Origin: Trematomus loennbergii
Taxonomy: Eukaryota > Chordata > Actinopteri > Perciformes > Nototheniidae
Length of the DNA stretch: 64,000 bases
Assembly (NCBI GenBank): GCA_012861695.1
Contig: JAAOOA010000027.1
Coordinates: forward strand, 18,596,075-18,660,074
Reading direction: 5' to 3'
A program made the position numbers and the translations under genes. A model generated the notes under the pieces. It saw only the letters and a program-made list of their open reading frames with translations, made no database searches and was not told where the DNA came from. How positions within the stretch are numbered: the first letter of the stretch is position 1; the number at the start of each line of letters is the position of its first letter. Positions 16,037 through 29,072 of this stretch are shown here, piece after piece.

Positions 16037-16188
16037 GAGTAGTAATACAAATCCTGTTTCAATCACATTAGTATGCATAAAAAGTGACAGGTCACACCTG
16101 CCCTATCAGTACTACTACTTATGCTAAGTCCCGCCCCCTAATTATGCTAATGAGCCCCTTTGATATGCTAATGAGCCCCTTTGTTCGA

Positions 16189-16680
16189 GGTGTTATCACA
16201 TGTAGGTGTGACATTCCCCATTGTAGTAGATCCTTTGTTGTGTAATCTAATTAGCCTTTGATGTCTGATCCCTTTGTTGTCTATCCTTTGATGTGAGGGG
16301 TGAGGTGTTTGTGACATGTAGGTGTGATATCCCCTGTTGTAGTAGATCCTTTGTTGTATAATCTAATTAGCCTTTGATGTCTGCCCCCTTTGTTGTCTAA
16401 TTACCCTTTGATGTCTATCCTTTGATGTGAGGGATGGGGTGTTTGTGACATGTAGGTGTGAACTCCCCCTTGTAGTAGATCCTTTGTTGTATAATCTAAT
16501 TAGCCATTGATGTCTGACCCCTTGTTGTCTAATCTAATTAGACCCTTTGATGTCTGTCCTTTGATGTAAGGTGGGAGGTGTTATAACATGTAGGTGTGAT
16601 ATTCTCCCTTGTAGTAGATCCTTTGATGTCAATCTAATTAGCCCTTTGATGTATGTCCTTTGATCAGTGTTTGTAATTAG
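16189..16680 (+). repeat. Tandem ~130-bp units near the left arm end
   Basis: Four units each begin around CATGTAGGTGTGA (near 16198, 16314, 16448 and 16585) and continue with TAGTAGATCCTTTG and several copies of CCTTTGATGTC with TAATCTAATTAG. The unit length drifts between about 115 and 137 bp. Recurrent short motifs near an element terminus could be binding sites for a transposase or replication protein. Confidence 0.85.
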
Positions 16681-16887
16681 TGTTAAGGTAGTCTCTTTGA
16701 AGTTGTGTGAGACTGTCTCGCACCCCGTCCTCCTCTCACCTCTTCCCCCTCTCACCCCTCCCCCCTTCCTTTTGCTGTGATGTCAGAAGATAGAGGGTGG
16801 AGTTAGATGGAAAATAAAATCCGTGCAAACTAGATAAAAAGCCAGTCATTTCCACTCACCAAGTCACCTAAACTTTCAAAAACGAAA

Positions 16888-17073
16888 ATGGCAAAGAGAC
16901 GCATCGATAGGGGTTTAATCAGCGAGACGCCTGTGACAACTTACCGCCATCCGTCGGGAGCTCCAGTCAAGAAACGGATGCAGTATCTGTGCCGGGTTCA
17001 GACCCTCCGTCGGAGGCTCTTCATGAAAAATGGAGTCTGGATGTGTGAGACTGTCTCCCCTCACACCCCCTAA
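16888..17073 (+). CDS. Short basic protein of the palindromic element (61 codons)
   Basis: ATG in a good start context (GAAAATGG), with an AGATAAAAAG TATA-like box about 55 bases upstream. The product starts MAKRRIDRGLISE and is rich in Arg/Lys (PVKKRMQYL, RRRLF), which suggests a nucleic-acid-binding peptide. A diverged copy at 31080 keeps the first 50 or so residues in frame with several substitutions, modest support for real coding. The last residues (CETVSPHTP) come from a GAGACTGTCTC repeat that also occurs upstream at 16706, so the C-terminus may not be a conserved end. The minus-strand mirror copy (about 28039-28223) has one G fewer and stops early. No homologue is recognised. Confidence 0.4.
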   Translation: MAKRRIDRGLISETPVTTYRHPSGAPVKKRMQYLCRVQTLRRRLFMKNGVWMCETVSPHTP

Positions 17074-17444
17074 CACCCCCTCCCCTCCCCCCTGCCTGTC
17101 ACCTCCTGATTTTCCTATCAGCCGTTAATTCTCATTCACTAAGTCACCTAAAACTTTTATTGTCCTCTCTAAATTAGATTAGTTTTTTAATATGATTTGT
17201 GTTAACTAAGGATGTTCTCTTAAGTTGTATGGCTTGTGAACTAATGTTTAATTACTTTATTAACTATAACAAAGTCTCTCTGAGAGGAAAATAATAATTT
17301 AAAATATGTTAATGACCCCCTGATATTGTATTTTGTAATGTTTAATTACTTCGCACAACTATTAATGAATCCCTATATGAAGTTACATGAGGCTACATTT
17401 ACTTGGGTTGAGCCCTGGATGATGAAAATAATCTAAGTGTCATG

Positions 17445-17605
17445 TTAGGGGGGCATTACGGAACTCAGGAGTCCGCCCTTGGAGGCCTGGAGAGCGGATA
17501 AAGAGAGGTGTATTTACTGGTGTTGAGCCCTGGATGATGTAAATAGTCCAAGTGCCATGGTAGGGGGGCATTACGGAACTCAGGAGTCCGCCCTTTGAGG
17601 CGTTG
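17445..17605. repeat. Direct repeat pair 'GGGGGGCATTACGGAACTC'
   Basis: Two ~120-bp blocks (starting about 17400 and 17518) share TGAGCCCTGGATGATG..AATA and TAGGGGGGCATTACGGAACT, then CAGGAGTCCGCCCTT. They are mirrored at 27510-27710. A diverged half is visible in the third copy near 30870. Confidence 0.7.
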
Positions 17606-27200: not shown

Positions 27201-28038
27201 CAAATCTGTCATATCAAAACATTCTATTGCAGTATTTTATCTGTTTTATGTGCACTGTTGGAGGAGCCTGTGACCTATGTTTTTCATTGACATATCTACA
27301 CTGTAGCTAATGGGCATATGCCATAAAGCCTTGAAACTTGAAAACTTAAAATGATCAGAAACTGCATTGTCTCACTGAAAACAGCTCTAAAGAAAACCCC
27401 ATTCCATACAAAGTACTTAACTTTCTACCAGTTGTAAAGTGTTGCTCACTTCAAAAGTGTATCTAAAAAAGTATCTTAGTAACAAAAACAAAAGCATTAA
27501 TGTTAACAACGCCTCAAAGGGCGGACTCCTGAGTTCCGTAATGCCCCCCTACCATGGCACTTGGACTATTTACATCATCCAGGGCTCAACACCAGTAAAT
27601 ACACCTCTCTTTATCCGCTCTCCAGGCCTCCAAGGGCGGACTCCTGAGTTCCGTAATGCCCCCCTAACATGACACTTAGATTATTTTCATCATCCAGGGC
27701 TCAACCCAAGTAAATGTAGCCTCATGTAACTTCATATAGGGATTCATTAATAGTTGTGCGAAGTAATTAAACATTACAAAATACAATATCAGGGGGTCAT
27801 TAACATATTTTAAATTATTATTTTCCTCTCAGAGAGACTTTGTTATAGTTAATAAAGTAATTAAACATTAGTTCACAAGCCATACAACTTAAGAGAACAT
27901 CCTTAGTTAACACAAATCATATTAAAAAACTAATCTAATTTAGAGAGGACAATAAAAGTTTTAGGTGACTTAGTGAATGAGAATTAACGGCTGATAGGAA
28001 AATCAGGAGGTGACAGGCAGGGGGGAGGGGAGGGGGTG

Positions 28039-28223
28039 TTAGGGGGTGTGAGGGGAGACAGTCTCACACATCCAGACTCCATTTTTCATGAAGAGCCTCC
28101 GACGGAGGGTCTGAACCCGGCACAGATACTGCATCCGTTTCTTGACTGGAGCTCCCGACGGATGGCGGTAAGTTGTCACAGGCGTCTCGCTGATTAAACC
28201 CTATCGATGCGTCTCTTTGCCAT
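28039..28223 (-). pseudogene. Right-arm copy of the short basic frame, broken
   Basis: Identical to the left-arm frame except that the run after ATCGATA has one G fewer, producing a stop after nine codons. Either true decay or a homopolymer consensus error. Confidence 0.5.
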
Positions 28224-28428
28224 TTTCGTTTTTGAAAGTTTAGGTGACTTGGTGAGTGGAAATGACTGGCTTTTTATCTAGTTTGCACGGATTTTATTTT
28301 CCATCTAACTCCACCCTCTATCTTCTGACATCACAGCAAAAGGAAGGGGGGAGGGGTGAGAGGGGGAAGAGGTGAGAGGAGGACGGGGTGCGAGACAGTC
28401 TCACACAACTTCAAAGAGACTACCTTAA

Positions 28429-28921
28429 CACTAATTACAAACACTGATCAAAGGACATACATCAAAGGGCTAATTAGATTGACATCAAAGGATCTACTAC
28501 AAGGGAGAATATCACACCTACATGTTATAACACCTCCCACCTTACATCAAAGGACAGACATCAAAGGGTCTAATTAGATTAGACAACAAGGGGTCAGACA
28601 TCAATGGCTAATTAGATTATACAACAAAGGATCTACTACAAGGGGGAGTTCACACCTACATGTCAAACACCCCATCCCTCACATCAAAGGATAGACATCA
28701 AAGGGTAATTAGACAACAAAGGGGGCAGACATCAAAGGCTAATTAGATTATACAACAAAGGATCTACTACAACAGGGGATATCACACCTACATGTCACAA
28801 ACACCTCACCCCTCACATCAAAGGATAGACAACAAAGGGATCAGACATCAAAGGCTAATTAGATTACACAACAAAGGATCTACTACAATGGGGAATGTCA
28901 CACCTACATGTGATAACACCT
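28429..28921 (-). repeat. Tandem ~130-bp units near the right arm end
   Basis: Mirror copy of the left-arm units, same count and order on the minus strand, seen as GACATCAAAGG and TCACACCTACATG on plus. One unit has lost two bases relative to its left-arm partner. Confidence 0.85.
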
Positions 28922-29072
28922 CGAACAAAGGGGCTCATTAGCATATCAAAGGGGCTCATTAGCATAATTAGGGGGCGGGACTTAGCATAAGTAGTAGTAC
29001 TGATAGGGCAGGTGTGACCTGTCACTTTTTATGCATACTAATGTGATTGAAACAGGATTTGTATTACTACTC

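Follow-up and report, generated by a model that had tools for sequence, protein, structure and literature searches.

We observed a palindrome of about 13 kb in a 64,000-nucleotide stretch of the genome of the fish Trematomus loennbergii (NCBI GenBank assembly GCA_012861695.1, size 1.21 Gb; contig JAAOOA010000027.1; G000:C27:18596075-18660074 in our labels), which is referred to in its entirety as the window. The palindrome belongs to a family designated F1, for which there is a sister family, F2, and a third, rearranged relative, F3. Comparison of the window with itself revealed that positions 16037-22356 pair in inverted orientation with 29072-22754, at 99.747% identity; the alignment, of 6327 columns, contains 1 mismatch and 13 gap openings. 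An earlier note on this DNA had described a long, near-perfect palindrome at 16037..29072. Such a palindrome exists, but those coordinates take in one flank base on each side, 16037 being the last base of the left CCTATG and 29072 the first base of the right one. The element proper spans 16038-29071, with AGTAGT at 16038 and ACTACT at 29071. Base by base, the differences between its arms are nearly all indels of 1-2 bases, often in homopolymers. A very young palindrome would show such differences, and so would leftover long-read error; arm identity alone therefore does not date it.

The tandem units that had been noticed near the tips are real (Table 1). The unpaired core of ~400 bp is likewise present, at 22357-22753, but it is not an original spacer. 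It consists of a lone remaining axis-proximal piece of 81 bp and ~326 bp of partnerless minisatellite, and is the product of an asymmetric central deletion that took the axis and one 81-bp piece from the window copy. The minisatellite, which had been placed at the axis, actually lies beside it, and relatives with an intact centre have ~300 bp more palindrome between its two copies.

Table 1. Coordinates in the window of the F1 element, its parts and the adjoining F2 insertion.
Feature	Position	Strand	Remarks
Target-site duplication CCTATG, left	16032..16037	.	
F1 palindrome, left arm	16038..22356	+	tip AGTAGTAATACAAATC
Subterminal tandem units, ~116-139 bp each	16187..16652	+	mirror at about 28459-28922
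Maverick accessory-gene remnant, MAKRR...	16888..17073	+	mirror in right arm
Open frame with second accessory open reading frame remnant	20800..21330	+	mirror in right arm
~371-bp deletion junction, left arm	21291..21314	+	
Minisatellite GTTTCAGT, left arm	21971..22346	+	
Axis-proximal piece, 81 bp	22347..22427	+	once in window copy; flanks axis on both sides in intact-centre copies
Minisatellite, right arm	22428..23139	-	~326 bp (22428-22753) unpaired
F1 palindrome, right arm	22754..29071	-	
~371-bp deletion junction, right arm	23797..23820	-	
Target-site duplication CCTATG, right	29072..29077	.	
F2 insertion adjoining the F1 element	29745..32637	+	cut off by assembly gap
100-N assembly gap within F2 element	32638..32737	.	

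The earlier note had proposed a genome-wide look for further copies of the terminus, and a large number is present. A search of the assembly with the 104-bp tip, in which the best 40 of 1035 candidates were scored, gave 14 plus/minus pairs spaced 13.0-15.6 kb among the 40 matches, the window's own pair among them. Ten of the 13 other pairs were retrieved and examined; all ten were whole-element palindromes, with arms 97.7-99.5% identical along their main stretches. With a 23-base pattern of the F1 tip (up to 3 mismatches), 118 forward and 126 reverse places were found, compared with 5 and 1 for the controls. The palindrome is present at tens of loci, and chance is therefore no concern. Exact, locus-specific duplications of 6 bp flank 8 of the 11 F1 elements examined, including that of the window (CCTATG, CTCCCG, CCTCTT, AACAGA, GATGGT, GACCCC, TACCTA and AACATG). 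The window copy is an insertion and not an assembly fold-back, because CCTATG flanks its AGTAGT...ACTACT on both sides.

Where the centre is intact, the arms measure about 7.0-7.2 kb and meet at a near-perfect axis around a loop of ~22 nt. C120 has this loop in reverse orientation, C28 has it twice and C86 has a shortened form. The C28 axis (L013/L014) has two loops back to back, as though the centre had folded back again. In C311, a 1.3-kb insertion is present in one arm only (left half, L009, about 1842-3153). Axis probes were used as well, since the 104-bp tip search cannot separate palindromes from other elements with the same tip. The 99-bp F1 axis probe (best 40 of 307 candidates scored) gave 67 matches in 40 clusters, with both strands represented in 27 of the 40, some partially, and one strand in 13. 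Among the 100 of 244 F1 tip places that were listed there are 36 tip pairs, 23 with an axis match and 13 without. Twenty-one of the 23 have the match at 0.45-0.54 of the interval and the other two at 0.87. The window's own pair falls among the 13, although a missing match does not equal absence, as C311 is also among them and its axis is present. A few tip pairs with the tip AGTAGTAGTAC are only ~1.1 kb apart (G000, C630:180021-181153, C784:93078-94210 and C784:150334-151463); these are perhaps short deletion derivatives.

The F2 insertion beside the window palindrome begins ~670 bp to its right with the tip AGTAGTGTTACC, and the 100-N gap that interrupts it probably marks an unassembled long palindrome. 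Elsewhere, an F2 element (L053/L054) is a whole-element palindrome with 6.3-kb arms that are 98.0% identical (27 substitutions) and with the duplication GACATA on both sides. The F2 tip pattern (up to 2 mismatches) occurs at 142 forward and 140 reverse places, with 0 and 0 for the controls. A 241-bp probe from within the F2 neighbour (best 40 of 804 candidates) gave opposite-strand pairs in seven elements (C837, C500, C197, C173, C49, C28 and C21). With a 126-bp F2 axis probe (best 40 of 308 candidates), a mirror match stands alongside at 35 of 40 places, two of them only partial, and 12 of the 35 are identical (100%) over 94 bp. The 38 F2 tip pairs listed comprise 12 with an axis match, near the middle in 11 and at 0.76 of a 27-kb interval in one, 8 with a polymerase and 18 with neither; three of the latter (C197, C49 and C28 at 698434) are mirrored according to the 241-bp probe. 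F3 is represented by C229 (L049/L050), a rearranged relative of 17.4 kb that carries the same axis on both strands. It has further open frames without a Pfam match, and its right part seems to contain a nested retroelement.

The palindrome had been thought to fit no family that could be named; its ends, its duplications and the content of its arms are those of Maverick/Polinton. Vertebrate Mavericks are described as having 6-bp duplications and, most commonly, the ends (AGT)2//(ACT)2 (PMC8097293). The window element has these ends, and duplications of that length flank the single F2 element examined as well as most of the F1 elements. The genome has 122 matches to the protein-primed polymerase PF03175, which has none in 14 control genomes. 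Two polymerase-bearing elements have polymerase-side ends that start with AGTAGTGTTACC. These ends are 97-99% identical to the F2 neighbour over ~900 bp, and the F1 tip matches them at 89% over 62-63 bp and at 85-91% over bases 87-177. When the arm was compared by BLAST with 20 polymerase loci there was no match, because those loci stop short of the termini; the tip comparison was made with the element ends.

In all 8 polymerase-bearing tip pairs the polymerase matches are on one strand, and none of the 8 has an axis match among the scored matches. Conversely, among the matches listed, no PF03175 polymerase was found in the window element or in any of the 35 axis-matching tip pairs. The F1 palindrome is classed here as a non-autonomous Maverick derivative and not as a Maverick itself, because the protein-primed polymerase B was not found in it. 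Of the integrase, the F1 arm has only fragments of 37 and 46 codons, and the window copy has lost the fragment at the axis. The F1 arm has no long open frame outside the minisatellite, although no search was aimed at capsid proteins, ATPase or protease. Pfam searches with two arm open reading frames, two neighbour or host frames and the F3 pieces returned nothing for the element, matches to PHROGs were weak and were not used, and a protein search with the arm frame found 4 relatives among 33 candidates.

For the most part, the F1 arm resembles the integrase-side end of L055, a polymerase-bearing Maverick with the duplication TGCTTG on both sides. From the tip inward, the integrase-side end of L055 has an accessory piece (842-1012, within the open frame 788-1360), open frames at 1096-1686 and 1747-2565, and the integrase at 2729-3898 (rve 3.8e-13, Chromo 3.9e-8). 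The F1 arm C28_R has matching accessory pieces at 795-1001 (64%), 4576-4659 (64%) and 4864-5208 (43%, 9.8e-26), followed at the axis, at 7093-7203, by integrase codons 139-175 (59%, 2.4e-6). The gene order of tip, three accessory pieces and integrase is common to both, with only a fragment of the integrase, at the axis, in F1. In the window itself, the MAKRR... remnant matches a polymerase-bearing Maverick, at its integrase-side end, with 74% identity over 57 amino acids, and the remnant at 20800..21330 corresponds to codons 125-228 of the second accessory frame (38%). A second integrase fragment (codons 299-344, 76%) lies out of order at about 19546-19683 of the window and is mirrored in the right arm.

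The F2 axis peptide matches the L055 integrase at 74% over 38 amino acids (3e-15). Judged from these alignments, the mirror point is inside the catalytic domain of the integrase, and F1, F2 and F3 would most simply trace to one fold-back event. The loop of F1 resembles a truncated version of that of F2. Over its outer 1.46 kb, the F2 arm aligns in pieces (about 83-96%) with the polymerase-side end of Mavericks, whereas the integrase-side end aligns with no more than the outer ~450 bp of this arm; because of this difference, we consider that the F2 tips were probably swapped with those of a helper after the fold-back.

Variation between arms was informative on the age of the palindromes. No substitutions were found over the ~6.2 kb before the minisatellite among C260_R, C178_L and C86_R, nor between C28_R and C120_R. 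As arms of different elements can lack any substitution between them, the spread was recent. Between the two arms of an element there are 2 to 62 substitutions. The variant states number 200, with 157 confined to a single arm, 32 found in at least two elements and 11 belonging to one element. Seven of the 11 are in C123_R and its likely copy C2983_L, and the other four are in both arms of one element (two in C56 and two in the window copy). Single-arm variants, often clustered in one arm of an element, may reflect an unpolished consensus.

The earlier note had raised exchange between arms, and for the window copy this is supported by a deletion of ~371 bp that is at the same place in both of its arms and was not seen in either arm of any of the ten other elements aligned. 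The deletion junction (up to 1 mismatch) occurs at exactly 2 places assembly-wide, one in each window arm, with 0 and 0 for the controls. Short deletions common to both arms were also seen in C86 and C120, at about the same place and not always of equal size. Homogenisation of the arms is well supported in the window copy, whereas across the family it is intermittent; either gene conversion or hairpin copying may bring it about.

Overall, we have good confidence that the window element is an insertion of a non-autonomous mobile palindrome family that arose from a Maverick/Polinton through a fold-back in the integrase gene and that spread in trans. Mavericks would be copied by protein-primed strand displacement, and a strand with the integrase-side end may have snapped back inside the integrase gene. 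If the snapped-back strand were copied to the same end, a linear palindrome with an identical Maverick terminus at both ends would result. A palindrome of one end would have the correct terminus on both sides, and such a one-ended product could survive. The polymerase and integrase of co-resident Mavericks would act in trans on its termini, spreading the palindrome and generating, on integration, the 6-bp duplications that we observed. Later, arms are at times homogenised and centres lost by asymmetric deletion, as in the window copy.

Several observations weigh against this reading. Neither an intermediate nor a mobilisation event was seen. The arm also departs from a plain copy of a Maverick end, as it is 7 kb long, with extra sequence, where ~3.3 kb would suffice, and its integrase codons 299-344 are out of order (3508-3645 of C28_R, 76%). 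No exact 6-bp duplication was found at C123, C56 or C2983 among the 11 F1 elements examined, and none of the 100 tip places listed, out of 244, belongs to a polymerase-bearing element that has the exact F1 tip. Lastly, C741_R and C56_R alone share ten variants, and another two are confined to C741_L and C56_L; the palindromes therefore also move with two distinct arms, which are not copied anew from each other at each move.

The alternative that fares best is that a chromosomal Maverick fragment was duplicated in inverted orientation by the host, through break repair or template switching at a replication fork, and was mobilised later through its Maverick outer ends. The short loop and the location of the axis within coding DNA are compatible with any template switch of the fold-back kind, and none of our data place the fold-back in extrachromosomal replication. 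However, on the second side the duplication would have had to end precisely at the terminus, which copy-back on a linear molecule yields freely. This is an argument and not a test. We regard a host origin as unlikely.

We think it very unlikely that an element replicating through a covalently closed or self-primed hairpin has the palindrome as its normal form, at double length. The ends of parvoviruses and poxviruses replicate through hairpins, and a small asymmetric loop that occurs either way round in the assembly, the double loop in C28 and the private deletion common to both window arms would suit such a mode. Against this, loop orientation merely tracks the orientation of insertion, relatives with the same tip and a polymerase carry it on a single strand (8 of 8 pairs), and arm-specific variants are inherited.

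An artefact of assembly or of chimeric reads folding back, which the earlier note had raised, now has next to no likelihood as a general explanation. The arm differences are mainly homopolymer indels, as such an artefact would have them, yet at eight loci, the window's included, different flanks share a 6-bp duplication, the arms carry private changes, and the axis is central in 21 of the 23 axis-matching F1 pairs listed. For the window copy, the flanking duplication led us to reject this explanation. It was retained as likely for contig C2983 (L015/L016), where the palindrome continues into both flanks, which repeat the right flank of C123; this is probably an assembly fold-back contig. It is scarcely credible that the element is a foldback transposon (FB, Galileo or MULE-like). 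Such transposons resemble it in having very long inverted repeats that contain tandem units, but its ends carry the Maverick motif, its duplications measure 6 bp, and both its tip and the content of its arms are related to those of Mavericks.

Returning to an origin by copy-back, a more extended proposal is that these are heritable, transposing, copy-back defective Mavericks, with at least three families from one integrase fold-back and tips swapped with helpers, whose self-complementary transcripts may act as a double-stranded RNA or small-RNA brake on Mavericks. The brake is suggested because each transcript would be self-complementary across kilobases of helper-related sequence. We offer this proposal tentatively and would not call it probable.

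Other features were noted in the window. An open frame at 32790-33053 (VWCGYRNKIYIIQPKAM...) has a weak WD40_2 match (22.2 bits against a cut-off of 22.5) and resembles JIP3/JIP4-type scaffold proteins; the F1 and F2 insertions may therefore lie near or inside such a host gene. Copies of a dispersed repeat (11015-11400, 63180-63562 and 13499-13692) are 96-97% identical, and long GT dinucleotide tracts are present at 41643-41772 and 60393-60611.

Long near-perfect palindromes are usually thought to be unstable in chromosomes. This assembly nonetheless holds tens of recently inserted palindromes of 13-15 kb, many with an intact axis, and their copies form a natural series for loss of the centre and arm-to-arm exchange. 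FB and Galileo elements also have very long inverted repeats with tandem units, in combination with their own ends, their own transposase and another duplication length. The palindromes differ from them in ends, duplications and enzymes, having Maverick ends and 6-bp duplications; a partner transposase of the FB/Galileo kind was not searched for. With vertebrate Mavericks they share the (AGT)2//(ACT)2 ends, the 6-bp duplications, a homologous tip and a similar total size (PMC8097293), and the F1 arm keeps remnants of the accessory genes and integrase. They differ in that no polymerase was found and the integrase is fragmentary. In addition, published Maverick inverted repeats are 46-1,447 bp long (PMC8097293), whereas the palindrome arms are 6-7 kb, each being half of the element. 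No palindromic or non-autonomous Maverick/Polinton of this kind turned up in our searches of open-licence literature, or in the accessible text of PMC6431247, which reviews giant transposons, and of PMC9341512, a survey in zebrafish. The protein-primed linear plasmids of Podospora, as presented in the accessible text of PMC1864894, are mitochondrial and not a mobile palindrome family.

For adenovirus palindromes and DNA copy-back genomes, our literature search found nothing that addressed them directly. Copy-back or snap-back defective genomes and the palindromic defective genomes of adenovirus have one terminus at both ends, as a result of fold-back synthesis, and depend on a helper. The palindromes described here likewise have an identical terminus at both ends and a mirror point inside a helper gene, and by analogy they may depend on a helper too. 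They differ in being inherited chromosomally at tens of loci and in moving like transposons. These findings suggest that protein-primed, virus-like transposons shed snap-back parasites that are able to become mobile families, which would connect defective viral genomes with non-autonomous transposons and provide indirect evidence on how Mavericks replicate.

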